A DNA stretch of 64,000 nucleotides from Pseudomonas synxantha BG33R (GTDB lineage: Bacteria > Pseudomonadota > Gammaproteobacteria > Pseudomonadales > Pseudomonadaceae). Location: assembly GCF_000263715.2 (NCBI RefSeq), contig NZ_CM001514.1, positions 6,138,498-6,202,497 on the forward strand, given 5' to 3'. Under the pieces are notes generated by a model. It worked only from the letters and a program-made list of their open reading frames with translations. It searched no databases and was not told the origin of the DNA. Both the position numbers and the translations under genes were made by a program. This document shows positions 22,167 through 44,207 of the stretch, piece by piece; positions within the stretch are counted from its first letter, which is position 1, and each line of letters starts with the position of its first letter.

Positions 22167-22172
22167 CGCGGA

Positions 22173-23507: not shown

Positions 23508-23525
23508 GGGGGCTCCGATTGCTTG

Positions 23526-24035
23526 TTATTGGGCTGGGCTGGAGGGGGAAACCACGACGTCGGCGCGCACGGCACGCACATCGAGGCTGATCTGGTATTC
23601 GCTGGATTGGCGCGGCGCTACGTTGATCACGGCGCGCCATTGCGCGCGGTCCAATTCGCGATAGCCCACCAGCACGCCGATCTGGCGCGTGGCCGGGTTG
23701 AGGTCACGCTGAATGCTCAGTTGCTGGCCGGGTTGCACCACCACTTCATCCTGGTCCAGCAGGTCGAGGCCGAGGGTGGATTGCGCACGGTCAGCCAGGG
23801 CGAAGTAATCGGAGCGGGAAAAGGTCGCGGCGTTTTTCAGTTCGAAAATACGCACCCGCACCGGCGCAGCCTGGCCATTGGCGCCGGGGTTAAGCCCGGC
23901 GATCGCGTGGAAATGCAACTCGACGGCGGCGCTGTTGGCTTGCGTGTCGGCAGCCGCTTCGGGTTTGGCCGCATCGTTTGCACACGCGGTCAGCAGCAGC
24001 GCGGTAGCAGCTGCGAGTAAAAACCTGGGAATCAT
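23526..24035 (-). CDS. tssJ: T6SS outer-membrane lipoprotein TssJ
   Basis: TssJ (169 aa) is the lipoprotein that anchors the T6SS membrane complex at the outer membrane through TssM. The signal peptide ends in LLLTACAND, so Cys18 is the lipidated residue. The mature domain shows the family pattern, with VRIFELKNAATFSRSDYFAL and the later GQQLSIQRDLNPATRQIGVLVGYRELDRAQWR. It follows fha1 after a 56-base gap and precedes tssK. Confidence 0.94.
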   Translation of the reverse strand: MIPRFLLAAATALLLTACANDAAKPEAAADTQANSAAVELHFHAIAGLNPGANGQAAPVRVRIFELKNAATFSRSDYFALADRAQSTLGLDLLDQDEVVVQPGQQLSIQRDLNPATRQIGVLVGYRELDRAQWRAVINVAPRQSSEYQISLDVRAVRADVVVSPSSPAQ

Positions 24036-24091
24036 CCTGCGTCCTCAATGACGTGTTTAGCTATCCGTTTTATCCATAAGTGCGACGCGCT

Positions 24092-25438: not shown

Positions 25439-25730
25439 CTTGCCTCCTTGCTGATGCATCGCGCGCGGTCTACCCAAAGGGCCACGCTTCCCTGAAGATT
25501 TGCCCGCGGTCGCGAAAACGACCGCCAAAATCTGCTTTTACCAGCATGATCGCTGATCTTAACTGGCTTGCATGACAAAAATCCTCCATGGGCACGCCTT
25601 TCGACCCGCCAGTCGCGCAGGTTGTTAAACACCGCACATCTGTCACAGAGGGCGAATAGCTTACCTTGACAAGGCATAAGTACTACACCAAAAATGCACA
25701 ACTTCTTGAACATCAGTGATGGCGCAGTAG

Positions 25731-25746
25731 TGGCACTCTGATTGTA
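25731..25746 (+). promoter_or_regulatory. Possible sigma-54 promoter for tssA
   Basis: TGGCAC, five bases, then TTGTA matches the -24/-12 pattern TGGCAC-N5-TTGCA except for T in place of the -12 C. A start site would fall near 25758, about 75 bases before tssA. The mismatch is at an important position, so this is only a candidate. Confidence 0.35.
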
Positions 25747-25793
25747 TGACCAAGAAAACATGCACAGTTCATTGCGCAACTAATGCATGCGTT

Positions 25794-25811
25794 GCCCGCC
25801 TTCCAGCGGGC
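25794..25811 (+). promoter_or_regulatory. Leader hairpin before the tssA ribosome site
   Basis: GCCCGC and GCGGGC form a perfect 6-base stem with a 6-base loop, ending four bases before the AAGGAG ribosome site (25816-25821). It is placed where it could affect translation. No regulator is shown. Confidence 0.4.
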
Positions 25812-25831
25812 TGATAAGGAGATCGAATTCA

Positions 25832-26851
25832 GTGGATGTGCCGTTGCTGCTCACCGCCGTTTCTGCAACTTCGCCCTGTGGCGAAGACATGGAATATGAC
25901 GCGCAATTTCTGCAATTGGAACGTGATGCCAAGGGCCAGCCCGAACGCAGCATGGGCGACTCGATCCTGCCCGCCGAGCCGCCGGAGTGGCGCAGCATCC
26001 AGCAGCAGAGCCTCGACTTGTTGCAGCGCAGCAAAGACCTGCGCATCACTCATTTCCTGCTGCAAAGCTCCCTCGCCTTGCAGGGCGTGGCCGGGCTGGC
26101 TGAAGTCCTTGGCCTGATCAACGCCTTGCTGCGCGAATACTGGGCCGACGTGCATCCACGCCTGGATGCCGACGACGACAACGACCCCACCGTGCGCATC
26201 AACGCCCTGACCGGCCTGACCTGCGACACCAATATTCGCCTGTTGCGCGAAAGCATCCTGACACGCTCACGCACCTTCGGGCCCGTAAGCCTGCGCGCCG
26301 CGCTCAATGCCAGCGGCCTGCAGAATTTTGCCGACGAGCAGCTGGGCAACCAGCAGCTCAACGCAGCATTCCTCGACAGCGACCCCGAGCTGCTGCAAGC
26401 CACCCGCGACGCGTTGATCGCAGCGCGTACGGCCTGCGAAGCCATCGAGCAACAGGTCAATGACCAGGTCGGCTCCGCCCAGGGCGTGGACCTCAGCGCC
26501 TTGAAGCAACCGCTCAAACAGGCCCTGCAAATACTCAATCAAGCGGTGCCTGGCACCGACAGCAGCAGCGAACCCGAGGCCGTCAGTGAAGACAATGCCC
26601 CCTCGGTCGATTTCGCCGCTGCGCCCGCAGCCCCTCGCCCGACGGGCGACATCGCTACTCGCGATGATGTGCTGCGCAGCCTCGACAAAATCCTTGCGTA
26701 CTACACTCGGCACGAGCCTTCGAGCCCGCTGCCGGTGTTGTTGAACCGAGCGAAAAATCTGGTGCACGCCGACTTCGCGGCCATTGTGCGCAATCTGATT
26801 CCCGACGGCATGTCCCAATTTGAAAACCTGCGCGGCCCGGACAGCGAGTAA
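25832..26851 (+). CDS. tssA: T6SS protein TssA
   Basis: TssA (339 aa, ImpA family) caps or primes the tail tube/sheath during assembly. The N-terminal ImpA_N motif is visible in LLTAVSATSPCGEDMEYDAQFLQLERDAKG. The C-terminus has RDDVLRSLDKILAYYTRHEPSSPLPVLLNRAK, as in TssA1 proteins. The GTG at 25832 is chosen because AAGGAG lies ten bases upstream; an in-frame ATG at 25787 lacks a ribosome site. It is the first gene of the rightward arm. Confidence 0.93.
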   Translation: MDVPLLLTAVSATSPCGEDMEYDAQFLQLERDAKGQPERSMGDSILPAEPPEWRSIQQQSLDLLQRSKDLRITHFLLQSSLALQGVAGLAEVLGLINALLREYWADVHPRLDADDDNDPTVRINALTGLTCDTNIRLLRESILTRSRTFGPVSLRAALNASGLQNFADEQLGNQQLNAAFLDSDPELLQATRDALIAARTACEAIEQQVNDQVGSAQGVDLSALKQPLKQALQILNQAVPGTDSSSEPEAVSEDNAPSVDFAAAPAAPRPTGDIATRDDVLRSLDKILAYYTRHEPSSPLPVLLNRAKNLVHADFAAIVRNLIPDGMSQFENLRGPDSE

Positions 26852-26905
26852 GCCGCCGGACCGTGCAGTAACAACACCGTCGCTCAAGCGACCAGGAGCA
26901 GCAAC

Positions 26906-27412
26906 GTGGCGAAGCAAAGTTCTCAGAAATTCATCGCGCGCAACCGTGCGCCTCGAGTGCAGATCGAGTACGACGTCGAGCTCTACGGCGCCGAGAAAAA
27001 GGTCCAGCTGCCCTTCGTAATGGGTGTGATGGCCGACCTCGCCGGCAAGCCCGCCGAGCCGCTGGCACCCGTGGCCGACCGCAAGTTCCTTGAAGTGGAC
27101 GTCGACAACTTCGACTCACGCCTCAAGGCCATGCAGCCACGCGTGGCGTTCCACGTACCCAACGAGCTGACCGGCGAAGGCAACCTGAGCCTGGATATCA
27201 CCTTCGAAAGCATGGACGACTTCAGCCCGGCCGCCGTAGCGCGCAAGGTTGACTCGCTGAACCAGTTGCTCGAAGCCCGCACTCAGTTGGCCAACCTGCT
27301 GACCTACATGGACGGCAAGACCGGCGCTGAAGAAATCATCATGAAGGCGATCAAGGACCCGGCACTGCTTCAGGCACTTGCCAGCGCGCCCAAGCCTGCA
27401 GGGGAGCAGTAA
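26906..27412 (+). CDS. tssB: T6SS sheath protein TssB
   Basis: TssB (168 aa) is the small sheath subunit; it pairs with TssC to form the contractile sheath around the Hcp tube. Family features are MAKQSSQKFIARNRAPRVQIEYDVE at the start, ELPFVMGVMADL-like residues near 35-50 and FDSRLKAMQPRVAF. tssC starts two bases after its stop. The start codon is GTG (frame check: gtggcgaag), with AGGAG upstream. Confidence 0.96.
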   Translation: MAKQSSQKFIARNRAPRVQIEYDVELYGAEKKVQLPFVMGVMADLAGKPAEPLAPVADRKFLEVDVDNFDSRLKAMQPRVAFHVPNELTGEGNLSLDITFESMDDFSPAAVARKVDSLNQLLEARTQLANLLTYMDGKTGAEEIIMKAIKDPALLQALASAPKPAGEQ

Positions 27413-27414
27413 TC

Positions 27415-28911
27415 ATGACTGACAATACCGCCCGCGAAGGCAGCCAGATCCTGGGTGCTACCGAAGAAGCCAGCGAGTTCGCCAACCTGCTGCTGCAAGA
27501 ATTCAAACCCAAGACCGAGCGTGCCCGCGAAGCCGTGGAAACCGCGGTGCGCACCCTGGCCGAACAAGCCCTGGCGCAAACCGACCTGGTGTCCAACGAC
27601 GCGATCAAGTCGATCGAATCGATCATCGCCGCCATCGACGCCAAGCTCACCGCCCAGGTTAACCAGATCATCCACCACCAGGATTTCCAACAGTTGGAAA
27701 GCGCCTGGCGTGGCCTGCACTACCTGGTCAACAACACCGAGAGCGACGAGCAACTGAAGATTCGCGTGCTCAACATTTCCAAGCCGGAGCTGCACAAGAC
27801 CTTGAAGAAATTCAAGGGCACCGCGTGGGACCAGAGCCCGATCTTCAAGAAGATGTACGAAGAAGAATACGGCCAGTTCGGCGGCGAGCCTTACGGTTGC
27901 CTGGTAGGCGATTACTACTTCGACCAGTCGCCACCCGACGTGGAACTGCTGGGCGAGCTGTCGAAAGTCTGCGCCGCCATGCACTCGCCGTTCATCGCGG
28001 CCGCATCGCCCACCGTAATGGGCATGGGCTCCTGGCAGGAACTGTCGAACCCACGCGACCTGACCAAGATTTTCACCACCCCGGAATACGCCGGCTGGCG
28101 TTCGCTGCGTGAATCGGAAGACTCGCGCTACATCGGCCTGACCATGCCGCGCTTCCTGGCGCGCCTGCCATATGGCGCCAAGACCGACCCGGTGGAAGCC
28201 TTTGCCTTCGAAGAAAACACCGACGGCGCCGACAGCTCCAAGTACACCTGGGCCAACGCCGCCTACGCGATGGCGGTGAACATCAACCGCTCGTTCAAGC
28301 ACTACGGCTGGTGCTCGCGTATCCGTGGTATCGAGTCTGGCGGTGAAGTGGAAAACCTGCCGGCCCACACGTTCCCTACCGATGACGGTGGCGTGGACAT
28401 GAAGTGCCCGACCGAAATCGCTATCAGCGACCGCCGTGAAGCGGAACTGGCGAAGAACGGTTTCATGCCGCTGCTGCACAAGAAAAACACCGACTTCGCC
28501 GCGTTCATCGGCGCCCAGTCGTTGCAGAAGCCGGCTGAATACGACGATCCGGACGCCACCGCCAACGCCAACCTGGCCGCACGTCTGCCGTACCTGTTCG
28601 CCACCTGCCGTTTCGCCCACTACTTGAAGTGCATCGTGCGCGACAAGGTCGGCTCCTTCAAAGAGAAGGACGAGATGCAGCGCTGGTTGCAGGACTGGAT
28701 CCTCAACTACGTCGACGGCGACCCTGCGCACTCCACCGAAACCACCAAGGCCCAGCACCCGTTGGCGGCTGCCGAAGTGATCGTGGAAGAAGTCGAAGGC
28801 AACCCGGGGTACTACAACTCCAAGTTCTACCTGCGCCCGCACTACCAGCTTGAAGGGCTGACGGTGTCGTTGCGTTTGGTATCGAAGCTGCCTTCGGCAA
28901 AAAGCGCTTAA
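27415..28911 (+). CDS. tssC: T6SS sheath protein TssC
   Basis: TssC (498 aa) is the large sheath subunit recycled by ClpV. Diagnostic stretches are FQQLESAWRGLHYLVNNTESDEQLKIRVLN, FGGEPYGCLVGDYYF, WRSLRESEDSRYIGLTMPRFL and RFAHYLKCIVRDKVGSF. Length and sequence are typical. It ends before a REPIN that separates it from hcp. A long reverse-frame reading on the opposite strand is a coding shadow. Confidence 0.97.
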   Translation: MTDNTAREGSQILGATEEASEFANLLLQEFKPKTERAREAVETAVRTLAEQALAQTDLVSNDAIKSIESIIAAIDAKLTAQVNQIIHHQDFQQLESAWRGLHYLVNNTESDEQLKIRVLNISKPELHKTLKKFKGTAWDQSPIFKKMYEEEYGQFGGEPYGCLVGDYYFDQSPPDVELLGELSKVCAAMHSPFIAAASPTVMGMGSWQELSNPRDLTKIFTTPEYAGWRSLRESEDSRYIGLTMPRFLARLPYGAKTDPVEAFAFEENTDGADSSKYTWANAAYAMAVNINRSFKHYGWCSRIRGIESGGEVENLPAHTFPTDDGGVDMKCPTEIAISDRREAELAKNGFMPLLHKKNTDFAAFIGAQSLQKPAEYDDPDATANANLAARLPYLFATCRFAHYLKCIVRDKVGSFKEKDEMQRWLQDWILNYVDGDPAHSTETTKAQHPLAAAEVIVEEVEGNPGYYNSKFYLRPHYQLEGLTVSLRLVSKLPSAKSA

Positions 28912-28930
28912 AAATCGGGACTGGCTCGCT

Positions 28931-29037
28931 CCCCGTAGGAGCGAGCTTGCTCGCGAAAAACTTGCAGGCGCTGCGTTCATCCAGGATGCCCGCGTCGCCG
29001 TTGACGACCTTCGCGAGCAAGCTCGCTCCTACAGGGG
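28931..29037. repeat. REPIN, GTAGGAGCGAGCTTGCTCGCG type, between tssC and hcp
   Basis: Inverted REP units (28931-28957 and 29010-29037) lie in the 174-base gap between tssC and hcp. This REP family differs from the other three in the window. Such structures can stabilise upstream mRNA or separate expression of neighbours. Confidence 0.9.
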
Positions 29038-29085
29038 TCGGCGGCGTTAACAAATACAGTGGCTGAGTCCACACGGGGAGAAAAC

Positions 29086-29574
29086 ATGGCTGTTGATATT
29101 TTCATCAAGATCGGCGACATCAAGGGCGAGTCCATGGACAAGGCCCACAAGGACGAAATCGACGTATTGAACTGGAGCTGGGGCATGGCCCAGTCCGGCA
29201 ACATGCATGTTGGCGGTGGCGGCGGCGCGGGCAAGGTGAATATCCAGGACCTGTCGCTGACCAAGTACGTCGACAAGGCTTCGCCCAACCTGATGATGCA
29301 CTGCGCCAGCGGCAAGCACATCGACAAGGTCAAGCTGACCGTGCGCAAGGCCGGTGGCGAAAGCCAGGTCGAGTACATGGTGATCAACCTGGAAGAAGTG
29401 CTGGTCACGTCCCTGAGCACCGGCGGCTCGGGCACCGATGATCGCCTGACCGAGAACGTGACCCTGAACTTCGCCCAAGTGATGGTCGACTACCAGCCGC
29501 AGAAAGCCGACGGCACCAAAGACGGCGGCGCGATCAAGTTTGGCTGGAACATCCGTTCCAACACCAAGCGCTGA
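29086..29574 (+). CDS. hcp: T6SS tube protein Hcp
   Basis: Hcp (162 aa) forms hexameric rings that make the inner tube and is secreted with effectors in its lumen. The start MAVDIFIKIGDIKGESMDKAHKDE and WSWGMAQSGNMHVGGG are typical of Hcp1. The ATG at 29086 has GGGGAG upstream; an in-frame codon at 29059 is rejected for poor fit. It is followed by a strong hairpin and tssE. Confidence 0.97.
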   Translation: MAVDIFIKIGDIKGESMDKAHKDEIDVLNWSWGMAQSGNMHVGGGGGAGKVNIQDLSLTKYVDKASPNLMMHCASGKHIDKVKLTVRKAGGESQVEYMVINLEEVLVTSLSTGGSGTDDRLTENVTLNFAQVMVDYQPQKADGTKDGGAIKFGWNIRSNTKR

Positions 29575-29579
29575 TAGCC

Positions 29580-29612
29580 CCTGTGGCCGTGACCCCGCGC
29601 CACGGCCACAGG
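29580..29612 (+). terminator. Strong hairpin after hcp
   Basis: A perfect 12-base stem (CCTGTGGCCGTG with CACGGCCACAGG) encloses a 9-base loop, starting six bases after the hcp stop. There is no long T run, so it may partly terminate transcription or protect the hcp mRNA end, letting hcp be made in excess over tssEFG-clpV. Confidence 0.65.
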
Positions 29613-29652
29613 CATCTTGTCCCTCTCGCAACCCGTCCGTGGAGCTGCTTTG

Positions 29653-30168
29653 GTGGTAACTGAAATCGCTTCCCGCGACCGTCTGCAACCGTCCCTGCTG
29701 GACCGGCTGACCGACGACGACCCGACCAATCCCAAGGAAAGCGCCGACAAACGCGTGCTATCCCTGACCCAATTGAAAGCCTCGGTACTGCGTGACCTGG
29801 CGTGGCTGCTCAACACCACCTCGTTGCTTGATGCCGATGCGACGCTGCACACCCCGGCCGGTACCTCGGTGGTCAATTACGGCCTGCCGGCACTGGCGGG
29901 CAACAGCGTTTCCAGTGTCGACATCAAGGCCCTGGAAGCCCTGATCTACCAGGCCATCGCCACCTTCGAGCCACGCATCCTGCGCCACACCCTGCGGGTC
30001 AAAGCCCGTGTCGGCCATGGCGAGATGAACCACAACGCCCTGAGTTTCGAGATCGAAGGCGACCTGTGGGCACAGCCAGTGCCGTTGCGCCTGCTGCTGC
30101 AAACCGACCTCGACCTGGAGTCGGGCCATGTACGCGTGGTCAATGCCGACCAGCGGAGACGCCCATGA
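29653..30168 (+). CDS. tssE: T6SS baseplate protein TssE
   Basis: TssE (171 aa) is the gp25-like baseplate subunit. Family residues include [21 protein letters not shown] near the start, [12 protein letters not shown], and [14 protein letters not shown] with the conserved EPRI. The GTG at 29653 has GGAG eight bases upstream and gives the usual N-terminus; an upstream TTG at 29617 lies in the post-hcp hairpin region. The stop overlaps the tssF start (ATGA). Confidence 0.93.
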
Positions 30169-32024
30169 ATCCGCGCCTGCTGGAGCTGTACAACCAGGAA
30201 CTGCACCACGTGCGCGAAAGCGCCGCCGAGTTCGCCAAGGAATACCCGAAGATCGCCAGTCGGCTGACCCTGTCCGGCATGGACTGCGCCGACCCCTACG
30301 TCGAACGCTTGCTTGAAGGCTTTGCCTACCTCACGGCCCGGGTGCAGCTCAAGCTCGACGCCGAGTACCCGACCTTCACCCACAACCTGCTGGAAATCGC
30401 CTACCCGCACTACCTGGCGCCCACCCCGTCGATGACCGTGGTGCAGTTGCAGACCGACCCGGATGAAGGCTCTCTGGCCAGCGGTTTCCCCCTGCCCCGC
30501 GACACGGTACTGCGCGCCGCCCTGGGCCGCGAAACCCAGACCTGCTGTGAGTACCGCACCGCACATCCAGTAACGCTGTGGCCGTTGCAGGTCAGCGCCG
30601 CCGAATACTTCGGCAACCCCGCCGCCGTGCTCGGTCGCCTGGCCGCCAGCGAGCCGAAAGCCAAGGCGGGTTTGCGCCTGACCCTGCGCACCGGTGCCGA
30701 ATTGCCGTTCAGCAGCCTTGAGCTGGATAACCTGCCGCTGTACCTCAGCGGCGCCGATGAGCAACCATTCCGCCTCTACGAACAACTGCTGGGCAATGCC
30801 TGCGCGGTGTTTGCACGCCAACCCGGCGGCGATTGGGTTGAGCGTTTGCCCCAAGACGCGTTGCGCTCCCGCGGGTTTGACGATGCCGACGCGGCGATGC
30901 CGGTAGTGGCGCGGGCGTTCCAGGGCTACCGGCTGTTGCAGGAATACTTCGCCCTGCCCCACCGCTTCCTGTTCGTCGAGTTTGCCGAACTGGGCCGGGC
31001 GGTCAAGCGTTGCGACGGCCAGGAGCTGGAACTGATTGTGCTGTTCGACCGCCACGAACCGAGCCTGGAAGGCAGCGTTGGCGCAGCGCAGTTTTTGCCC
31101 TTCTGCACCCCCGCGATCAACCTGTTCCCAAAACGCGTGGACCGCATCCACTTGTCTGACCGGGTCAACGAACACCACGTGATCGCCGACCGCACGCGGC
31201 CGATGGATTTCGAGATTCACTCGTTGAGCGGCATCACCGGCCACGGCACCGGGCCGGAGCAGCCGTTTTTACCCTTCTATGCGGTGCGTGATCCGTCGCG
31301 TTATGGCCGTGACCAGGCTTACTACACGGTGCGCCGCGAGCCACGCGTGCTGTCCAGCGACCAGCGCCGCAACGGCCCGCGCTCCACCTACGTGGGCAGC
31401 GAAACCTTCGTCAGCCTGGTGGACAGCCGCCAGGCGCCCTACGGCCATGATTTGCGCCAGTTGGGCGTCACGGCGCTGTGCACCAACCGTGACTTGCCGC
31501 TGTTCATGAGCGTGGGCAACGACAAGACCGATTTCACCCTGGCCGACAGCGCTCCGGTGCTTTCAGTGCGTTGCGTCGCAGGTCCCAGCCGCCCACGCGC
31601 CAGCCATGCCCACGATGCCAAGGCCTGGCGCCTGATCAGCCAGCTGTCGCTCAATTACCTGTCTTTGAGCGAACAGGGCCAGGGTGCCGGCGCCCTGCGT
31701 GAGTTATTGCGCCTGTACGGCGACAGTAACGACGCCGCTCTGCAATTGCAGATCGAAGGCTTGCGCGAAGTCAGCAGCAAGGCGGTGACCCGGCGCCTGC
31801 CGATGCCCGGGCCGATCGTGTTTGGCCGGGGCCTGGAAATCACCCTGCAATTCGATGAAAACGCGTTTCGCGGCACCGGTGTGTTCCTGCTCGGTGCGGT
31901 GTTGGAGCGCTTCCTGGCACGCTATGTGTCGATCAACAGTTTTACCGAGACGGTGATCCGTACCACCGAACGCGGCGAGATCATGCGATGGAAAGCCAAG
32001 CCCGGACGGCGTCCGACCCTGTGA
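30165..32024 (+). CDS. tssF: T6SS baseplate protein TssF
   Basis: TssF (619 aa) is a wedge subunit of the baseplate. The N-terminus [34 protein letters not shown] is highly typical. So are [34 protein letters not shown] and the C-terminal [17 protein letters not shown]. The ATG at 30165 overlaps the tssE stop; longer in-frame readings upstream overlap tssE and are rejected. Confidence 0.96.
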
Positions 32025-33031
32025 GTACCCTGGATGCGATGCATCAGGAGCCCTGGGAATATGACTTCTTCCAGGCGCTGCGGCGTATCGAGTGCGAATC
32101 GCCGGACCTGCCGCGCCTGGGCCATTCCCTGCGCCTGTCGGATGACCCGTTGCGCCTCGGGCAACAGGCCGATTGCACCTTCGCGCCGGCCACGCTGGCG
32201 TCGGTCGACCCCGGCGGCGACGGCAAGCCGGCGCGGCTGGAGCAGTTCTTCTTCGGCCTCGGCGGCCCCAACGGCCCACTGCCGCTGCATATCACCGAGT
32301 ACGTGCGCGAGCGTCAGCGCAATAACGCCGACAGCACCAGCAAGCAGTTCCTGGATGTGTTCCACCATCGCTTGCTGACGCTGTTCTACCGAGCCTGGGC
32401 CGAGGCGCGTCCGACGGTCAGCCACGACCGGCCGGACGATGACTACTGGTCCGCACGCCTCGCCGCCCTCAGTGGCCGCGGTATGCCAAGCCTGCAGAAT
32501 CAGGGCCTTATCCCGGATACCGCCAAGCTGCACTACAGCGGCCACCTGTCGGCGCAAACCCGCTACCCGGATGGCTTGAAGGCGATCCTTGGCGAGTATT
32601 TCGGCCTGCCGGTAGCGATCGAGGAATACGTCGGCCAATGGCTGGAATTGCCCGAGCGCAGCCGCGTCGGTGTGAGCGCCAACCAGTTGGGCGTGGATTT
32701 TTGCCTGGGCCGCTTTGTGTGGGACCGCCAGCATAAATTCCGCATTCGCCTGGGCCCACTCAAGCTGGACGACTACATGGGGATGCTGCCTGGTCATCAA
32801 CCGTTCAACGAACTGGTGGCCTGGGTGGCCGAGTACCTGGGCCATGAACTGGACTGGGACCTGAACCTGGTTTTGCAACAACCCGAAGTTCCGGCACTGC
32901 AACTCAACGGCCAGTTCCGCCTGGGTTTCAATACCTGGCTCGGCCAACCTGCGCATGACGCCAACGACCTAATCCTGGCCCGGCATTACGCCGACCACGC
33001 CACCACCTCAAGGAATCCAGAGCATGGGTGA
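31988..33031 (+). CDS. tssG: T6SS baseplate protein TssG
   Basis: TssG (347 aa) pairs with TssF in the baseplate wedge. Typical stretches are EPWEYDFFQALRRIECESPDLPRLG, FFGLGGPNGPLPLHITEYVRER and RVGVSANQLGVDFCLGRFVWDRQHKFRIRLGPL. With the ATG at 31988 it overlaps tssF by 37 bases. A GTG at 32021, overlapping the tssF stop as GTGA, is an equally sensible start. The stop overlaps clpV by eight bases. Confidence 0.93.
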   Translation: MESQARTASDPVSTLDAMHQEPWEYDFFQALRRIECESPDLPRLGHSLRLSDDPLRLGQQADCTFAPATLASVDPGGDGKPARLEQFFFGLGGPNGPLPLHITEYVRERQRNNADSTSKQFLDVFHHRLLTLFYRAWAEARPTVSHDRPDDDYWSARLAALSGRGMPSLQNQGLIPDTAKLHYSGHLSAQTRYPDGLKAILGEYFGLPVAIEEYVGQWLELPERSRVGVSANQLGVDFCLGRFVWDRQHKFRIRLGPLKLDDYMGMLPGHQPFNELVAWVAEYLGHELDWDLNLVLQQPEVPALQLNGQFRLGFNTWLGQPAHDANDLILARHYADHATTSRNPEHG

Positions 33032-35687
33032 AATCAGTCGCGCCGCACTGTTCGGCAAACTCAACAGCGTGGCCTACAAGGCCATCGAAGCCGCCACCGT
33101 GTTCTGCAAGTTGCGGGGCAATCCGTATGTGGAGCTGGCCCACTGGTTTCACCAGTTGCTGCAATTGCAGGACTCGGACCTGCACCGCATCATCCGCCAG
33201 TTCAACCTAGAACCGGCGCGCCTGGCCCGTGACCTTACCGAGGCCCTGGACCGCCTGCCACGCGGGTCGACCTCCATCACCGACCTGTCCTCCCACGTGG
33301 AGGAAGCGGTGGAACGTGGCTGGGTGTACGGCAGCCTGATGTTTGGCGAAAGCCAGGTGCGCACCGGTTACCTGGTGCTGGGCATTCTGAAAACGCCGAG
33401 CCTGCGCCACGCGCTGCTGGGCTTGTCCGCCGAATTCGACAAAGTCAAGGCCGAAGCCTTGAGCGAGCGCTTTGACGAATACGTCGGTGACTCGCCGGAA
33501 AATGCCTTGAGCGCCAGCGATGGTTTCAATGCTGGAGCAGTGCCGGGTGAAGCCAGCGGTGCGATGGCGCCGAGTGCGATGGGCAAGCAGGAAGCGCTCA
33601 AGCGCTTCACCGTTGACCTGACCGAACAGGCCCGCAGCGGCAAGCTCGACCCTATCGTCGGCCGTGACGAAGAGATTCGCCAACTGGTAGACATCCTCAT
33701 GCGTCGGCGCCAGAACAACCCGATCCTCACCGGTGAGGCCGGAGTGGGCAAGACCGCCGTGGTCGAAGGTTTCGCCCTGCGCATCGTCGCCGGTGATGTG
33801 CCGCCCGCCTTGAAAGACGTGGAACTGCGCAGCCTCGACGTGGGCCTGCTGCAAGCCGGCGCCAGCATGAAGGGCGAGTTCGAACAGCGCCTGCGCCAGG
33901 TCATTGAAGATGTGCAGTCTTCGCCCAAGCCGATCATCCTGTTTATCGACGAAGCCCATACGCTGGTGGGCGCCGGCGGTGCCGCCGGTACGGGTGACGC
34001 GGCCAACCTGCTCAAGCCCGCTCTCGCCCGTGGCACCTTGCGCACCGTGGCCGCGACGACCTGGGCCGAGTACAAGAAACACATCGAGAAAGACCCGGCG
34101 CTGACCCGCCGTTTCCAGGTGGTACAGGTTGCCGAGCCGTCGGAAGACAAGGCGCTGCTGATGATGCGCGGCGTGGCCTCGACCATGGAAAAACACCACC
34201 AGGTGCAGATCCTCGATGAAGCCCTGGAAGCCTCGGTCAAGCTGTCGCACCGCTACATCCCGGCGCGCCAGTTGCCGGACAAGTCCGTGAGCCTGCTGGA
34301 CACCGCCTGCGCCCGTGTCGCCATCAGCCTGCACGCAGTGCCCGCCGAAGTGGACGACAGCCGTCGCCGCATCGAAGCGCTGGAAACCGAGCTGCAAATC
34401 ATCGCCCGCGAACAGGCCATCGGCATTGCCATTGGTACGCGCCAGAGCAACAGCGAAGCCCTGTTGAGCACCGAGCGCGAGCGCCTGGCGACCCTGGAAA
34501 ACCGTTGGGCCGAAGAGAAAGCCCTGGTGGATGAACTGCTCGCCACCCGTGCCACCTTGCGCGAAAAGGCCGGCGTAGTAGACAGCGGCAGCGATGAACT
34601 CCGCACGCAACTGATCGACCTGCAACAACGCCTCACCGCCCTGCAAGGCGAAACCCCGCTGATCCTGCCGACCGTGGATTACCAGGCCGTGGCCTCGGTG
34701 GTCGCCGACTGGACCGGCATCCCGGTGGGCCGCATGGCGCGCAACGAACTGGAGACCGTGCTCAACCTCGACCAGCACCTGAAAAAACGCATCATCGGCC
34801 AGGACCACGCCCTGCAGATGATCGCCAAGCGCATCCAGACTTCCCGCGCCGGCCTCGACAACCCGAGCAAGCCGATTGGCGTGTTCATGCTGGCCGGCAC
34901 CTCGGGTGTGGGCAAGACCGAAACCGCCCTGGCACTGGCCGAAGCCATGTACGGCGGCGAGCAGAACGTCATCACCATCAACATGAGCGAGTTCCAGGAA
35001 GCCCACACCGTGTCCACCCTCAAGGGCGCGCCACCGGGCTATATCGGCTACGGCGAAGGCGGCGTGCTGACCGAAGCGGTGCGGCGAAAACCCTACAGCG
35101 TGGTGCTGCTGGATGAGGTAGAGAAAGCTCACCCGGACGTGCATGAGATCTTCTTCCAGGTGTTCGACAAGGGCGTGATGGAAGACGGCGAAGGCCGAGT
35201 GATCGACTTCAAGAACACCCTGATCCTGCTGACTACCAACGCCGGTACCGAGCTGATCTCCCACGTCTGCAAAGACCCGGCGAACATTCCCGAGCCGGAA
35301 GAAATCGCCAAGGCCCTGCGCCAGCCGTTGCTGGAGATTTTCCCACCGGCGCTGCTGGGGCGTTTGGTGACCATTCCCTACTACCCGCTGAGCGACGAGA
35401 TGCTCAAGGCGATCACGCGCCTGCAACTGAACCGCATCAAGAAGCGCGTGGAGAACACCCACAAAGTCGCCTTTGACTACGACGATGCGGTGGTCGATTT
35501 GATCGTCTCGCGCTGCACTGAAACCGAAAGCGGCGGGCGCATGATCGACACTATCCTCACCAACAGCCTGCTGCCGGACATGAGCCGTGAGTTCCTCACG
35601 CGCATGTTGGAAGGCAAGGCGCTGGCGGGGGTGCGGATCAGCAGTCGGGATAATGAATTGCACTACGACTTCAGCGACGCAGATTGA
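33024..35687 (+). CDS. clpV: T6SS sheath-recycling ATPase ClpV (TssH)
   Basis: ClpV (887 aa) is an AAA+ unfoldase that disassembles contracted TssBC sheath. The N-terminal domain covers about residues 1-160. The first AAA domain has Walker A GEAGVGKT (237-244) and Walker B IILFIDEAHTLVG. The second has GTSGVGKTETAL at about residue 630 and VVLLDEVEKAHPDV. The length matches ClpV1. It ends 19 bases before a REPIN that separates it from vgrG. Confidence 0.97.
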   Translation: MGEISRAALFGKLNSVAYKAIEAATVFCKLRGNPYVELAHWFHQLLQLQDSDLHRIIRQFNLEPARLARDLTEALDRLPRGSTSITDLSSHVEEAVERGWVYGSLMFGESQVRTGYLVLGILKTPSLRHALLGLSAEFDKVKAEALSERFDEYVGDSPENALSASDGFNAGAVPGEASGAMAPSAMGKQEALKRFTVDLTEQARSGKLDPIVGRDEEIRQLVDILMRRRQNNPILTGEAGVGKTAVVEGFALRIVAGDVPPALKDVELRSLDVGLLQAGASMKGEFEQRLRQVIEDVQSSPKPIILFIDEAHTLVGAGGAAGTGDAANLLKPALARGTLRTVAATTWAEYKKHIEKDPALTRRFQVVQVAEPSEDKALLMMRGVASTMEKHHQVQILDEALEASVKLSHRYIPARQLPDKSVSLLDTACARVAISLHAVPAEVDDSRRRIEALETELQIIAREQAIGIAIGTRQSNSEALLSTERERLATLENRWAEEKALVDELLATRATLREKAGVVDSGSDELRTQLIDLQQRLTALQGETPLILPTVDYQAVASVVADWTGIPVGRMARNELETVLNLDQHLKKRIIGQDHALQMIAKRIQTSRAGLDNPSKPIGVFMLAGTSGVGKTETALALAEAMYGGEQNVITINMSEFQEAHTVSTLKGAPPGYIGYGEGGVLTEAVRRKPYSVVLLDEVEKAHPDVHEIFFQVFDKGVMEDGEGRVIDFKNTLILLTTNAGTELISHVCKDPANIPEPEEIAKALRQPLLEIFPPALLGRLVTIPYYPLSDEMLKAITRLQLNRIKKRVENTHKVAFDYDDAVVDLIVSRCTETESGGRMIDTILTNSLLPDMSREFLTRMLEGKALAGVRISSRDNELHYDFSDAD

Positions 35688-35706: not shown

Positions 35707-35800
35707 AATGTGGGAGCTGGCTTGCCTGCGATAGCGGTGTATCAGTCAACATCAATGTTGAATGTTCAATTGCTATCGCAGGCAAGCCAGCTCCCACATT
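35707..35800. repeat. REPIN between clpV and vgrG
   Basis: Inverted REP units of the GTGGGAGCTGGCTTGCC type (35707-35735 and 35772-35800) flank an inner small palindrome (CAACATCAATGTTG, near 35747-35760). It marks the boundary between the core T6SS operon and the vgrG-effector cassette. Confidence 0.9.
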
Positions 35801-35843
35801 GGATTCGGTTCCTTCAGTAATCAAGACCTTTACAGGACGCCCA

Positions 35844-37790
35844 ATGCTATTCAACCAAGCCTCACGCCTGGCCAAGATCACCAGCCCTCTCGGGCCGGAT
35901 GTGCTGTTGCTCAACGAAATGGGCGGCGGTGAAGAGTTAGGAAGGCTGTTCAACTATGAGCTGCAACTGACGTCCCTGGACGCCAACATCGACCTCAACC
36001 AGTTGCTCGGCAAACCCATGAGCGTGGGCCTGCAACTGGCCGACGGTGGCGAGCGGCACTTTCACGGCATCGTCGCTCGTTGCAGCCAGAACATCGACCA
36101 GGGTCAGTTCGCCAGTTACCAGGTCACCCTGCGCCCATGGCTGTGGTTGCTCAGCCGCACCTCCGATTGCCGGATTTTCCAGAACCTGAGCATCCCGCAG
36201 ATCATCAAGCAGGTGTTCCGCGACCTGGGTTTTTCCGATTTCGAAGACGCCCTGAGCCGACCGTATCGCGAGTGGGAATACTGCGTGCAGTACCGCGAGA
36301 CCAGCTTCGATTTCGTCAGCCGCCTGATGGAACAAGAAGGCATCTATTATTTCTTTCGCCATGAACAGGATCGCCACGTGCTGGTGCTGGCCGACGCCTA
36401 TGGCGCCCACACCACGGTGCCGGGCTACGGGTCGATCCCCTACTACCCCAAGGACGAGCAGCAACGCGAACGCGACCATATGCACAACTGGCACCTGGCG
36501 CAAGAGGTGCAGCCGGGTTCGCTGGAGCTCAACGACTACGACTTCCAGCGCCCCAGCGCGAGCATCGACGTGCGCTCGGCCATGCCGCGCCCGCACACCG
36601 GCGGCGACTATCCGCTGTACGACTACCCCGGCACCTACGTGCAAAGCGCCGATGGCGAACACTACGCACGTACCCGCATCGAAGCGCTGCAAACCCTGCA
36701 TGAGCAGATCGAGTTCGCCGGCAATGCGCGTGGCCTGGGGTCGGGCCATCTGTTCAGCCTCACCGGCTTCAGTCGTCAGGATCAGAACCGCGAATACCTG
36801 ATCGTCGGCTGTCGCTACTACATCGTCCAGGAAAGCCTGGAGAGCGGAGGCGGCTCCGGTTCGGCGCAATTCGAAAGCAGCCTGACCTGCATCGATGCAC
36901 AACAGAGTTTCCGCCCACTGGCCAACACCCATCGCCCTATCGTCAAAGGCCCGCAGACTGCATTGGTGGTGGGCCCCAAAGGCGAGGAAATCTGGACCGA
37001 CCAGTACGGCCGCGTGAAGGTGCATTTCTACTGGGACCGCCACGACCAATCCAACGAGAACAGCTCGTGCTGGATCCGTGTGTCGCAATCCTGGGCCGGC
37101 AAGAACTGGGGTTCGATGCAGATTCCACGGATTGGCCAGGAAGTGATCGTCAGCTTCCTCGAAGGTGACCCCGACCGGCCGATCATCACCGGGCGGGTGT
37201 ACAACGCCGAGCAGACCGTGCCCTACGATCTGCCGGAAAACGCCACACAGAGCGGCATGAAAAGCCGATCGAGCAAGGGCGGTACGCCGGCCAACTTCAA
37301 TGAAATCCGCATGGAGGACAAGAAGGGTCTGGAACAGCTGTATATCCATGCCGAGCGCAATCAGGACATCGTGGTGGAGGTGGATGAAAGCCACTCGGTG
37401 GGGCATGACCGCAACAAGAGTATTGGCCATAACGAGACGGTGACCATCGGCAGCAACCGCCTGCGGGTGGTGCGCAACAACGACACCGTGATCGTCGGTG
37501 GCGCCAAGTCCGACAGTGCCGCCACGCACTACACCATCGAGGCCGGCGAGAATCTTCGCCTGGTGTGCGGCGACAGTGTGATCGAGCTCAAGGCAGGCGG
37601 GGATATCAACCTGACCTGCGGCTCGTTCAACCTGTTTTCCACCGGCAGCAGCAAGATCCAGACAAAGGGCAAACTGGACATCAACCTGGGCAGTGACAAG
37701 GGCACATCGCCCGGCGCCCAGGGCGTGCAAAATACGATCAAGTCCGCCGTCGAATCAAAATTCCCCGGCAAGCCCGGCGCTGGTCAATAA
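35844..37790 (+). CDS. vgrG: T6SS spike protein VgrG (TssI)
   Basis: VgrG (648 aa) forms the trimeric spike at the Hcp tip and carries PAAR effectors. The gp27-like part (about 1-370) includes [21 protein letters not shown] and [30 protein letters not shown]. The gp5-like OB region has [41 protein letters not shown]-type sequence. The C-terminal repeat-rich needle ends without an added effector domain, so cargo is delivered through the PAAR-Rhs protein downstream. AGGA precedes the start. Confidence 0.96.
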   Translation: [648 protein letters not shown]

Positions 37791-37805: not shown

Positions 37806-38240
37806 ATGAATTACCTGATCAACGAAGCCCAATTCACCCTGCCCGATGCCGAGGTACAGGACACCTCGATCAATATCCTCAAGTTCGCCAAGCTGGGCAC
37901 CACCCTAGTGGTGAGCCGCAGCCCATTGGCGGACGGCGAGAGCTTGCAAAGCAATTTCGAAGGCCAGCTGAAAAAACTCGAGCAGCAGGTCAAGGATCTG
38001 CGCTATTCCCCTGCACAAGCGGTCCAGGTCGGGCCGAAGCAGGACATTGACGCCTTTGAAGTACAGAACCGTTTCAACAAAGGCAGCGACAACATTTACC
38101 AATATCAGCTGGCAATGCAGATACCCGGCACCCGCCAACTGATTGCGCTGAGCTACGTCAAGACCCAGCCCCTGGGCCCTGTCGAGGCGGCTCATTGGGC
38201 AACGCTGAAAAACACGCTCAATTTTACTGCTACGCCCTGA
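37806..38240 (+). CDS. Eag-type chaperone (DcrB/DUF1795 family)
   Basis: This 144-aa DUF1795 protein lies between vgrG and the PAAR-Rhs gene, where Eag chaperones are found. Eag proteins bind and shield the N-terminal membrane helices of PAAR effectors and load them on VgrG. Sequence features are MNYLINEAQFTLPDAEVQDTSINILKF and FNKGSDNIYQYQLAMQIPGTRQLIALSYV. The spacing of 14 bases to the rhs gene suggests co-translation. Function is inferred from family and position. Confidence 0.9.
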   Translation: MNYLINEAQFTLPDAEVQDTSINILKFAKLGTTLVVSRSPLADGESLQSNFEGQLKKLEQQVKDLRYSPAQAVQVGPKQDIDAFEVQNRFNKGSDNIYQYQLAMQIPGTRQLIALSYVKTQPLGPVEAAHWATLKNTLNFTATP

Positions 38241-38254
38241 GTCGAGCCTGAGCG

Positions 38255-41200
38255 ATGAGTGACGATCTCTGGGCTGCCCGCGAAGGCGACGCACTGCTGC
38301 ACACCTCGGTGATGGCCGATATTCTCGGCGGTGTGCTGGAAGTGGCCGCCTATGCGGCGATCACTACCGTGGGCTGCCTGGCCGTTGCCGGGGCGGTTTT
38401 CCTCGCGACCGGTGCAACCATTGCCACTGGTGGCGTCGCATTGGTGTTGGTAGTGGGCGCGGTCGTCGGCATCACCGCGGGCCTCACGGGGGCGGACCTG
38501 GAGATATCCAGTTGGTGCGAGTCCGCCGCTAACTGGGTGTTCCCGCCGGTGATCGATGCGTTCATCACCAGCGGCTCGCACAACGTGTTCATCAATGGCA
38601 AAAAGGCTGCCCGCGCTGCCGGCAAGATGACGGCTGTGCCCGTCGCGCCCAGCGAGCCGGCAGCGCCGAGCTTCCTGGATATGGCAGGTGAGTTTTTCTC
38701 GCAGATGTGGCGCCCGACCGTCGCCTCGCCTGCGCCCGGCACCGAGCCGTGCCCGCTGGATACCGTGGGGTGCAACAAGCACCCGCCGATGCCGCTGCAA
38801 TTCATTGCCGAGGGTTCCAGCTCGGTATTCATCAATGGTCAGCCGGCGGCACGCAGCGGGGATCGCAGTACCTGCGATGCGAAGATTGGGACGGCTGAGG
38901 GCCTGATTTCGCCGGATGTGCGCATTGGTGGCGAGACCATCGTGGTGCAGGAGATTCGCAGCGGGAAAACGCCGGGGGTGGGGCTGGCGATTGCCGTGGT
39001 GATGGCATTGCGGGGCAATGTGAAGTGTTTCTGGACCAAACTGCCGTGCATGATCGGAAGTGCGTTGGTGGGCGGCGCGATTTCTTATGGGACCGCCAAG
39101 GTCACCTCTGCGCTCAAGGGCGCCATGAATGGCTCGCCCAATCCGGTGCACAGCGCGACAGGGGCCAAGGTCTTGGGCGAAGAGGAGGAGTTGGACTTTG
39201 TTCTGCCCGGCCTGCTCCCTATCGATTGGCAACGTTTCTACAACAGTCTCGATACACGTCGCAACGGCCTCTTCGGCGCAGGCTGGAGCGTCGACTATGA
39301 GGTGTCGGTCGAAATAGATGCCGACGAAAACCTGTTCTATATCGATGAGCAGGGACGGCGCCTGGAGATCGGTTATATCCCGTTGTCCGGTGGAGCGTTC
39401 GATCCGGGCGAAGGCCTTGCGGTGAGACGCAGCGGTGAAGGCGCGGTATTGATTGAGAGCATCGACGGTCTGTATCGGCTGTTCGAAATCGACCCGCAGA
39501 ACAACTCACGGATGCGCTTGCACCTGCTGGGTGATCGCAATGAAGGGCGGATCTTTCTCGATTACGATGCCCAGGGAAGGCTTCACCGCTTGCGTGACAC
39601 CCATGATTTCATGCACGTCGAGTTGAGTTATACAACTCAGCATCCGCGTCGTGTGAGCCACATCGAGCGGCGATACCTGCGCCAGGACCACTTCGATGCA
39701 CGCAGCGACGTACTTGTCAGTTATCGCTATGACAGCAACGGCGATCTTGCCGAAGTATTGGATGCACAAGGCACGACCCTACGACGCTTTGCCTACGACA
39801 GCAGCAGACGCATGGTCGAGCACCAATTGGCGAGTGGTCTGCGTTGCTTCTACCAATGGGCTCAAGTACCTGGACCAGACGGCCAGGAATGGCGCGTCAG
39901 TCGGCACTGGACAGATGCGGGCGATGAATACACCTTCGACTACGACTTGGATGCGGGCATTACACGCGTAACCGATGGGTTGATGCGCGTCAGCACTCGG
40001 CATTGGAACCCGCAATATCAGATCACCCGATACGTTGATAACGCAGGCAGTATCTGGGAATTCGAATGGAACGAAGATCGCCAGTTTGCAGGCGCGATTG
40101 ACCCAAAGAACGGCAGATGGCGCTTCTGTTACGACGACTCCGGCAACCTGAGTACAGTGACCGATCCGCTGGGCAGGACCCGTGGCACACAATGGCTTGC
40201 GCATTGGGCATTGCCTCAGGTTGAAACCGACCCTGCGGGCAATAGTTGGCATTACCGCTACGACCAACGTGGCAACTGCATTGAGGAAGTCGATCCACTG
40301 GGCAACCGCACGCGCTATGTCTATGACGGTTTCGGACAGCCGGTGCGCATCATCGATGCGACGGAAAAATCCAGAACATTGCATTGGAACGAGTGGAGCC
40401 AACTGGTCGAAGAAGTGGATTGTTCGGGTTATCCGACGCGTTATCAATACGATGCGTTTGGCAATCTGGTGGTGCAGACCAATGCCGAAGGTGAATCGGT
40501 GCGTTACCGATACGGCCCTCAGGCGCTGCTTCTGGAATGTCAGCTTCCGGACGGCCGCGTCGAACAATTCCAACGCAGCGCAAGTGGTTATCTGACTGCC
40601 CACGTAGACCCTGCCGGCAGCACCACACGCTATGTCTATGACATTCGCGGTCTGGTCAAACAGCGCTGGGACGCGCATAACCGTTCGGTCATGTTCGATC
40701 ATGATGCCTACGGACGTCTGAGCAAGCTGACCAACGAGAACGGTGAGAGTTATCGCTTTGAGTGGGATGCAGCCGACCGCATGGTGCAGCAGCAGGACCT
40801 GGATAAAAGCCGGCGCTGCTACACCTATGACCCGCTGGATGATGTCGTCGCCGTTGACTACCTGCCGGGAACGGAAGGTGAGCCGGTAGCGCCGCTGTCA
40901 CATCAGTTTCAGCGAGATCCCGTGGGACGCCTGGTCAGCAAAATAACTGCGGACGGTACCACCAGCTACGCGCACGACCTCAACGACCAACTGGTCGGTG
41001 TTACTTTCACGGCGCCTGATGGTAATGAGCAATTACTTGGCTTCAGCTATGACGCCATGGGGCAGCTCCTTGAGGAGAAAAGCTCGGCAGGGTCTGTGCA
41101 GCATCGTTACGACGAACTGGGAAATCTGATTCAAACCGGCTTGCCTGATGGTCGATGGCTGAACCGCCTGTATTACGGCAGTGGCCACCTGCATCAGTTG

Positions 41201-42613
41201 AATCTCGATGGAAAGGTTATCAGCGACTTCGAGCGTGATCGCTTGCATCGCGAAGTGCAGCGTACCCAGGGTCAACTCAAGACAAGTACCGCCTATGATC
41301 GAAGTGGAAGGGTCCGCTCGCGTCAGCGGCGCAGCATCGATCAGCCGTGGCAGCTGCCACCACTGGTAGAGACCGACTATAGCTACGATCCCAGCGACAA
41401 CGTGATTGGACGTCATCGTGTCGATCGCGTGCACGATCATCAAGAGCATCTGGGTTACGACAGTACCGAACGGATTCTTGTCAGCCACCAGGCAGGACGG
41501 AGCGAAACCTGCGCCTATGATGCCGCAGCCAACCTGCTCGATAGTTCACATCAAGGTGGCTTGGTAAAACATAACCGGCTGCTGACCTATCAAGATAAGC
41601 GTTACCGGTACGACGCCTTGGGTCGCCTGGTCGAAAAGCGCAGTGCCTCTCGCGGTTTACAGCGCTTTGTCTACGATGCGGAAAGTCGTCTGATTGAAGT
41701 ACGAAATGATAGCGGCAACAGGATAAGGATGACCTATGACCCCCTGGGGCGTCGCATTGAAAAAGCCGAGTATGGCAGCGATGGCTATCAGTTGGGGATG
41801 ACGCGCTTCCTCTGGGACGAGCTGCGTCTCTTGCAGGAATCCAGGCATAGTCAGTCCAGCCTTTATATCTATGAAGATGAAGGCTACAAGCCCGTAGCCC
41901 GGGTCGACGGCACGGGGCCTGTGCAAAAAATCCGTCACTACCATAACGACCTCAATAGCCAGCCGGAGCAGCTAACCGAAGAAGACGGCGAAGTCATCTG
42001 GCGGACCAGTTACCGAATGTGGGGCGGTACGGTGGAGGAAGTGCGCGAGCCTACCTACATCGAAGAGCAGAACTTACGGTTTCAGGGGCAATATCTAGAT
42101 CGAGAAACGGGACTGCATTTTAATACATTCCGGTTTTACGACCCGGATATCGGGCGGTTTACCACACCGGATCCTCTTGGGTTGGCGGGAGGGATCAATC
42201 TCTATCAATATGGGCCGAATCCGATCGCCTGGATCGACCCGTGGGGCTGGAAATGTTGGAGCACAGCAAGGAAAGGTGTTTGGAAAGCCGCGGGTGCCAA
42301 TGCCCGGCCAGGCCAGTACTCAACTAGAAACCTGGCTCGAATGGCCCTAGGCAAGGCACCGCAGATGAGAATAGAGGTTCGTTATCGTAATACTCTGAGA
42401 AGCCGACTAAAGGGACGTGTTGGCAGGACCAAGGAAATCACGGTGTCGATGGAGCTGAATCATCAATACATTCCACAACGCGCCGGATCAAAAGTGGCTC
42501 ATGAAGATTGGAACTTGACCAAGGCGACGCCTTGGGGGCATGAGTCAATGGACAAGTATCGCCATACCGGCTGGGATTTGGTGAGAATTGTAAAAACCAC
42601 AGGGCAATTTTAG
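38255..42613 (+). CDS. PAAR-Rhs T6SS effector with putative HNH-type nuclease tip
   Basis: This 1452-aa protein begins with a prePAAR motif AAREGDALLH (residues 7-16). Hydrophobic segments follow (about 25-78), then a PAAR region (about 102-230, two VFING strands) and further hydrophobic segments (about 241-280). The Rhs shell has many YD repeats (YDAxGRL-like) and ends in PDPLGLAGGINLYQYGPNPI with DPWGW at about 1328-1332. The last 120 residues are a distinct toxin tip: Glu1400, His1403, His1416, His1429 and His1437 (in ELNHQYIPQR, AHEDWNLT, WGHES and DKYRH) suggest an HNH/EHHH-type DNase. The class I prePAAR-Eag architecture is clear; the toxin activity is inferred. Confidence 0.93.
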   Translation: MSDDLWAAREGDALLHTSVMADILGGVLEVAAYAAITTVGCLAVAGAVFLATGATIATGGVALVLVVGAVVGITAGLTGADLEISSWCESAANWVFPPVIDAFITSGSHNVFINGKKAARAAGKMTAVPVAPSEPAAPSFLDMAGEFFSQMWRPTVASPAPGTEPCPLDTVGCNKHPPMPLQFIAEGSSSVFINGQPAARSGDRSTCDAKIGTAEGLISPDVRIGGETIVVQEIRSGKTPGVGLAIAVVMALRGNVKCFWTKLPCMIGSALVGGAISYGTAKVTSALKGAMNGSPNPVHSATGAKVLGEEEELDFVLPGLLPIDWQRFYNSLDTRRNGLFGAGWSVDYEVSVEIDADENLFYIDEQGRRLEIGYIPLSGGAFDPGEGLAVRRSGEGAVLIESIDGLYRLFEIDPQNNSRMRLHLLGDRNEGRIFLDYDAQGRLHRLRDTHDFMHVELSYTTQHPRRVSHIERRYLRQDHFDARSDVLVSYRYDSNGDLAEVLDAQGTTLRRFAYDSSRRMVEHQLASGLRCFYQWAQVPGPDGQEWRVSRHWTDAGDEYTFDYDLDAGITRVTDGLMRVSTRHWNPQYQITRYVDNAGSIWEFEWNEDRQFAGAIDPKNGRWRFCYDDSGNLSTVTDPLGRTRGTQWLAHWALPQVETDPAGNSWHYRYDQRGNCIEEVDPLGNRTRYVYDGFGQPVRIIDATEKSRTLHWNEWSQLVEEVDCSGYPTRYQYDAFGNLVVQTNAEGESVRYRYGPQALLLECQLPDGRVEQFQRSASGYLTAHVDPAGSTTRYVYDIRGLVKQRWDAHNRSVMFDHDAYGRLSKLTNENGESYRFEWDAADRMVQQQDLDKSRRCYTYDPLDDVVAVDYLPGTEGEPVAPLSHQFQRDPVGRLVSKITADGTTSYAHDLNDQLVGVTFTAPDGNEQLLGFSYDAMGQLLEEKSSAGSVQHRYDELGNLIQTGLPDGRWLNRLYYGSGHLHQLNLDGKVISDFERDRLHREVQRTQGQLKTSTAYDRSGRVRSRQRRSIDQPWQLPPLVETDYSYDPSDNVIGRHRVDRVHDHQEHLGYDSTERILVSHQAGRSETCAYDAAANLLDSSHQGGLVKHNRLLTYQDKRYRYDALGRLVEKRSASRGLQRFVYDAESRLIEVRNDSGNRIRMTYDPLGRRIEKAEYGSDGYQLGMTRFLWDELRLLQESRHSQSSLYIYEDEGYKPVARVDGTGPVQKIRHYHNDLNSQPEQLTEEDGEVIWRTSYRMWGGTVEEVREPTYIEEQNLRFQGQYLDRETGLHFNTFRFYDPDIGRFTTPDPLGLAGGINLYQYGPNPIAWIDPWGWKCWSTARKGVWKAAGANARPGQYSTRNLARMALGKAPQMRIEVRYRNTLRSRLKGRVGRTKEITVSMELNHQYIPQRAGSKVAHEDWNLTKATPWGHESMDKYRHTGWDLVRIVKTTGQF

Positions 42614-42637
42614 AGAACCCTTTCAGGAGCAGCAGAT

Positions 42638-43084
42638 ATGAGTGAGTTGACTGATTTTCACGTTTTCTGGGGCACGGCAATGACTGTCGCGGAAAAAAAA
42701 TCTGCCTCGATGGAAGATGAAAGCGCAGAGGATTTTGCTCGCAAGCTTTACGAAGAATATGTAGCGCAAGGCGCACCGAAAAATAAAAAAAAATGGCTAA
42801 CGGAGCGACTCGATAACGAATACCTTTGCATGAAGGATAAACCCGTATGGGTAGGCGAACCTGCCTGGCTGTATCATCAGGGGCACCCTATGGTCTTTTT
42901 GCATCAATTCCTGGTACCCCCTACAGCGCAGCACATCAAAGAAAGGATATCGCTAGGTGAGACTGTTTATGTATTTGGTGCAAAACACCTTGTTAAAAGG
43001 CCGACAGGGGATATATGGACCGATATCTATCGGATGGCTGTGCAAACTTACGAGGGGGAAACAACGTGGGAAATCTTCAAGTAA
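42638..43084 (+). CDS. Putative immunity protein for the Rhs toxin
   Basis: The gene encodes 148 aa and starts 24 bases after the rhs stop with an AGGAG ribosome site. It is AT-rich compared with its neighbours, as usual for immunity genes. The protein is soluble-looking and acidic in the middle (SASMEDESAEDFARKLYEEY) with PVWVGEPAWLYHQGHPMVFLHQFL. I do not recognise the family. Its role is inferred from its position directly after the toxin tip. Confidence 0.75.
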   Translation: MSELTDFHVFWGTAMTVAEKKSASMEDESAEDFARKLYEEYVAQGAPKNKKKWLTERLDNEYLCMKDKPVWVGEPAWLYHQGHPMVFLHQFLVPPTAQHIKERISLGETVYVFGAKHLVKRPTGDIWTDIYRMAVQTYEGETTWEIFK

Positions 43085-44155: not shown

Positions 44156-44207
44156 ATATACACCTCTAAAAATTAGTTTAGAGCGCGCTCCCTGCTGTCT
44201 CATGCCG

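Follow-up and report, generated by a model that had tools for sequence, protein, structure and literature searches.

A predicted colicin E7-type HNH nuclease tip and its likely immunity protein at an Rhs locus of Pseudomonas synxantha BG33R

A toxin and its antidote must fit each other at all times, which prompts the question of how a toxin gains an unrelated antidote. This question bears on a locus of Pseudomonas synxantha BG33R, in which a stretch of 64,000 nt (contig NZ_CM001514.1, positions 6,138,498-6,202,497, forward strand; hereafter the window) encodes a type VI secretion system (T6SS), an Rhs effector of 1452 residues and, behind it, a 148-residue protein. We consider it probable that the 120-residue tip of the effector is a colicin E7-type HNH DNase, which the T6SS encoded just upstream would likely inject into rival bacteria, and that the 148-residue protein likely binds the tip and keeps it inactive in the producer. 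Cleavage near DPWG may free the tip, which would then cut DNA in the target cell in a metal-dependent manner. The tip subfamily, the immunity family paired with it and the partner series are new as far as our literature searches reach; these found no description of this tip or immunity family, many journals lying outside their reach. Already known are colicin-type DNases in RHS proteins, as Table 2 of PMC3482391 lists Tox-ColE7 for T6SS and RHS proteins together with Imm-ColE7 and Imm-SUKH.

Conservation, fold and family of the toxin tip

Both reading frames named in the initial annotation are present, exactly 120 residues follow DPWGW, and Glu1400, His1403, His1416, His1429 and His1437 sit where they had been placed. 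The proposal that these five form a nuclease signature holds for Glu1400, His1403 and His1429 and fails for the other two. Among 32 aligned tips the invariant residues are E68, H71, N88, H97 and D101 of the tip (Rhs 1400, 1403, 1420, 1429 and 1433), while H84 and H105 (Rhs 1416 and 1437) vary even among the seven nearest tips; the conserved Asn1420 and Asp1433 and the place of Asn1402 had gone unnamed. Counting His residues alone says little, because 471 of 2000 tip shuffles contain a loose three-His pattern (H-X5-20-H-X5-20-H). The strict motif E[LI][HNDE]H-X13-18-N-X8-H-X3-[HD] is absent from all 2000 shuffles and has a single occurrence among the 95,023 residues of the six-frame translation of the window, a count that is descriptive only because the motif was written after the relatives were known; conservation is the better test.

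In PMC5536347 the two His of the HNH motif are described as metal ligands and the Asn as a constraint on the loop. The family profile aligns with colicin E7 such that E-L-x-H pairs with E-L-H-H and the family Asp with the last His, the conserved Asn and the His after it being the same in both, the window residues at these places being E1400, N1402, H1403, N1420, H1429 and D1433. The fold prediction gives the catalytic part of the tip a colicin/pyocin DNase fold, so that homology and predicted fold together support an HNH-superfamily nuclease, as the initial annotation had proposed. With the colicin residues that we take to serve as general base and metal ligands as a guide, His1403 is predicted to be the general base of a His-Me finger (Vvn and Cap5 are His-Me nucleases) in which Asn1402, His1429 and Asp1433 would hold the metal.

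At the first metal-ligand place Asn replaces the His in six window-clade tips (the window and L007-L011) and in L036 and L068, Glu stands there in L016 and Ser in L074-L076, giving five changes on a toxin tree built with that column left in; a single tip, L065, departs from the ELxH motif. The Asn lends some weight to an alternative that we regard as unlikely, namely that the tip is an HNH-fold nuclease mainly cutting RNA, or a DNase left weak or dead by Asn1402 that harms its target otherwise. However, those relatives found to have solved structures are DNases, the remaining motif residues do not vary over the 32 tips, purifying selection acts on the tip wherever dS was measurable (0.08-0.32), and Tox-EHHH proteins normally have Glu or Asp in this position ([ED]H,H,H in Table 2 of PMC3482391).

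The window tip had been called EHHH-type, and it does share the superfamily and, by eye, a Glu and three His; yet it is very improbable that it belongs to Tox-EHHH or to another of the named clades of HNH toxins. Pfam gives no Tox-HNH-EHHH (PF15657) match up to E 10 for the window tip, nor any for the relatives scanned, and the tip departs from the [ED]H,H,H motif in that Asn1402 precedes the base, Glu1400 lies three residues before His1403 and the last place is Asp. The label is unsupported, because PF15657 is unmatched in every tip scanned and the nearest relatives of solved structure are DNases of the colicin E7 type, and it was rejected together with the named HNH toxin clades, none of which matched the window tip; Tox-HNH-HHH is reached by relatives below cut-off only (best 20.8 versus 26.1 bits). 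The best named Pfam neighbours are Col-Pyo_DNase and LHH, in relatives only. For Col-Pyo_DNase (PF21431, cut-off 27 bits) the window tip has no match, L092 passes at 27.2 bits, and L093 and L021 score 26.9 and 25.1; the window sequence NHX16NX8HX3D differs from the strict colicin motif HHX14NX8HX3H given in PMC5536347. For the LHH nucleases (PF14411, at least 23.3 bits plus LHH) the window tip, which has LNH, is again unmatched, and the distant ELHH tips L033, L037, L038, L092 and L093 pass (3 of 10 and 2 of 2 in the two sets scanned) with matches covering only about 30 of 76 model positions.

The 148-residue protein and its site on the tip

The protein encoded 24 bases behind the tip is the likely antidote and, as the initial annotation held, belongs to no recognised family: it has no Pfam match above cut-off, its family (here ImmA) comprises 40 database members at E <= 0.001, the named ones being hypothetical proteins, and none of the 40 carries a precomputed Pfam domain. 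The model (pLDDT 90.7) consists of three helices followed by a sheet, for which no convincing PDB fold was found; it is thus unlike the helical Im-type immunity proteins of about 85 residues, for which Pfam also gives no match. DUF6756 (PF20541) was tried and set aside (15.3 bits, E 0.019, cut-off 27; 4 of 42 family members match at E <= 1), as were QueF_N and DUF1963, both below cut-off. A 196-residue relative lies behind more colicin-like tips (L092, L093 and L095) and shares a core stretch with the 148-residue family (hhalign 98.6%, 73 columns); DUF1963 touches one such relative (L092) at E 0.012, which is a lead only.

It is improbable that the gene is a mere bystander, rather than an immunity gene, given that a 148-aa-type gene lies directly behind the tip in 11 of 11 cluster-A loci. 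Searches of 398 Pseudomonas genomes gave an A-type immunity match in 17 and a toxin-profile match in 63, many of the latter weak and pyocin-like. A related tip adjoins the A-type gene in nine of the 17 (G000, G068, G376, G401, G438, G260, G434, G443 and G422, the last cut by a contig end) and is lacking beside it in eight, a distribution that would suit a bystander. Three of the eight (G257, G381 and G226) hold full-length copies, two (G255 and G054) a longer relative and three (G419, G048 and G357) fragments. However, the intact stand-alone copies (L089-L091) lie among small genes and Rhs pieces, like orphan immunity genes; in G257, G381 and G226 no toxin match was found at E <= 1e-5 by a search that scored only the best candidates per genome.

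The least sure step is where the immunity protein would bind. By analogy with Im proteins, which contact colicin E9 in this way, we give about an even chance that it grips Rhs 1370-1398 beside the active site. Alignments place this segment, lengthened in the window clade, at the sequence position of the colicin immunity exosite, and with gaps counted as differences it is the least conserved of five regions (identity 0.20 over 43 tips, 0.25 over 15 A-type tips). Within the window clade, however, the segment is not the least conserved (0.59, versus 0.56 for the N-helix). The same nuclease and antidote could instead be joined by a plug in the active site, a possibility that we put somewhat short of even. 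According to PMC13392607, Tdi5a plugs the active site of the His-Me DNase Tde5 in a crystal structure, and AlphaFold3 gives the same placement for other Tde5-type immunity proteins; charge would also favour a plug, the tip being basic (pI 11.2) and the 148-residue protein acidic (net -4). Neither of two opposing points is decisive: colicin E9-type immunity uses an exosite (PMC13392607), and the HNH core is the most constant part of the tip in the window clade (mean identity 0.84) while immunity families change.

Exchange of immunity partners

Clustering of the first downstream frame of at least 100 residues in 37 loci gave families A (11 loci), B (17), C (6) and D (2) and one single. A second pass over 52 distinct full-length tips (13 partial matches, two of them second pieces of kept tips, and 16 duplicates dropped; L001 and L003-L006 skipped) assigned 15 to A, 18 to B, 9 to C and 1 to D, Rhs membership being shown for only part of these 43; the remaining 9 are pyocin-type tips with no A-D match, whose next frames look mostly Im-like by eye rather than by profile. 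Profile comparison, which covered A, B and C, finds these families unrelated (0.1% each). On the toxin tree the immunity label requires 6 changes (7 if an uncertain pyocin row is set apart) versus 28.4 in shuffles, a count that is soft because only 20 of 49 inner branches are well supported. Different families also occur among near neighbours on the tree, L017 (family A) standing beside L024 (family D) with support 93/89.

Taken together, these data permit a tentative and rather doubtful joint reading. One colicin-type nuclease fold would extend from S-pyocins to Rhs tips in several phyla, its immunity partner having been swapped repeatedly between unrelated folds (Im and at least four others), mainly via a short exosite before a near-constant HNH core; the window pair would be a new branch, marked by Asn, His and Asp in the metal site, by a longer exosite and by a novel immunity fold, which toxin-less strains also keep as an orphan shield. 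A near-constant active site with several unrelated downstream families forms a ready series for comparing binding and cross-protection as partners change. The window pair contributes two precise predictions to it: Asn takes the place of one metal-binding His, and the longer segment should be in contact with the new immunity family.

A reciprocal rule, in which a long exosite goes with an immunity protein lacking a 12-residue insert and vice versa, holds for L017, L029-L031 and the window clade, fails for L022, and was dropped. In L002, L013-L015, L019-L021, L025, L027, L028, L030, L031, L034 and L041 the start of the downstream frame lies within the tip frame, 7 bases before its end; this overlap suggests translational coupling, whereas the window has a 24-base gap. 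The three Pseudomonas tips L074-L076 combine ELSH with a shortened stretch at the conserved-Asn place and weaker C-type immunity matches nearby, and may be copies in decay or one more branch. Behind Tannerella tips lies a fourth downstream family, of 249 residues and with no Pfam match (L026, 3329-4078), and behind a partial planctomycete tip a 257-residue protein unlike families A-D (L039, 3192-3965).

Effector architecture, related systems and distribution

The gene order runs from the T6SS cluster through VgrG, the Eag-type DcrB gene and Rhs to the 148-aa gene (Table 1). The initial annotation's assignment of the effector to the Eag-dependent class, made from prePAAR, the Eag gene and VgrG, is supported at the sequence level by the motif match, the Pfam PAAR, RHS-repeat and DcrB domains and the nearby T6SS cluster; Pfam also confirms the VgrG domains. 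The features of a class I prePAAR Rhs protein are found (prePAAR motif, PAAR domain with RHS/YD repeats, adjoining DUF1795/DcrB gene), and a hydrophobic stretch is visible in the translation, the class being characterized by one N-terminal transmembrane region and by Eag binding. The DPxG-(18)-DPxG motif is quoted in PMC9020831. Pfam matches were obtained for 10 of 10 T6SS proteins scanned; nine match TssM/L/K/J/A/B/C/F/G models, and the last (33024-35687), matching AAA/ClpB models, is labelled a ClpV-type ATPase from these domains and its position. The G+C content, 61.3% over the whole window and 58.0% over the N-terminus and core of Rhs, drops to 51.1% in its tip and further to 46.1% in the 148-aa gene, as would be expected of a swapped-in cassette.

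Table 1. Coordinates of the features within the window
Feature	Position	Strand	Basis or content
T6SS cluster	17380..35687	both	- strand: TssM, L, K, J; + strand: TssA, B, C, F, G and ClpV-type ATPase
VgrG spike protein	35799..37790	+	Pfam Phage_GPD 3.7e-108, Gp5_trimer_C, Phage_base_V
Eag-type chaperone (DcrB/DUF1795 kind)	37806..38240	+	Pfam DcrB 3.4e-20; between vgrG and rhs
Rhs effector, 1452 aa	38255..42613	+	Pfam PAAR, DUF6531, RHS_repeat, RHS; Rhs_assc_core residues 1253-1331
prePAAR motif AAREGDALLH, residues 7-16	38273..38302	+	fits AARxxDxxxH (form given in PMC7773334)
PAAR motif, best stretch residues 169-211	38759..38887	+	Pfam
Rhs core end DPLG-18-DPWG, residues 1306-1331, likely cleavage region	42170..42247	+	
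Toxin tip, 120 aa, predicted colicin E7-type HNH DNase	42251..42610	+	alignment, profile comparison, fold prediction
Variable segment preceding HNH core, Rhs 1370-1398	42362..42448	+	alignments and region identities; binding role putative
HNH core motif E1400-L-N1402-H1403 ... N1420 ... H1429-X3-D1433	42452..42553	+	
Likely ribosome-binding site of immunity gene, AGGAG	42625..42629	+	sequence
Likely immunity protein ImmA, 148 aa	42638..43084	+	

The DNase colicins E2, E7 and E9 and the S-type pyocins S2 and AP41 (PF21431; Tox-ColE7 of Zhang et al. 2012) resemble the tip in profile, predicted fold and NX8HX3 spacing. The tip alignment begins at E7 residue 490, so that about 45 residues at the start of the colicin domain have no counterpart; Asn and Asp occupy two of three metal places that are all His in colicins, the window immunity protein is not of the Im kind, and the window tip lies below Pfam detection. 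The LHH toxins are nearer to the distant ELHH tips than to that of the window. Rhs-HNHc of Salmonella Tennessee (PMC13224477) is likewise an Rhs-linked tip with a ColE7-like predicted fold, for which DNase activity blocked by its immunity protein is reported; it has a WHH motif and is likened here by description, not sequence. Three further systems are compared by description only. In VPA1263-Vti2 (PMC9602870) a T6SS DNase that belongs to the colicin/pyocin HNH group has its immunity gene downstream, the carrier being MIX with a Pyocin_S domain rather than Rhs/Eag. Tde5 with Tdi5a and Tdi5b (PMC13392607) is an effector of the His-Me DNase kind; the immunity proteins of its relatives differ in structure, and one of these is predicted to bind an exosite. 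Unlike the window effector, Tde5 is a FIX effector with two antidotes per toxin. Txe1-Txi1 of Pseudomonas plecoglossicida (PMC9020831), with DNase activity and immunity reported, is a prePAAR Rhs effector whose 130-residue tip has no known domain, an HH motif and a predicted CAD-like fold.

Tail to tail with the immunity gene lies a 343-aa Pro/Lys-rich frame (43172-44203, - strand), for which Pfam gives nothing up to E 1 and NCBIfam only rows at chance level. E. coli genomes gave no match to the tip-plus-immunity DNA and phages none to the immunity protein; a plasmid search returned one tip, in Phytobacter. In G226 (L091, 1-11001) several short Rhs core ends with differing tips, each with small genes behind it, accompany the full-length A-type gene without a toxin.
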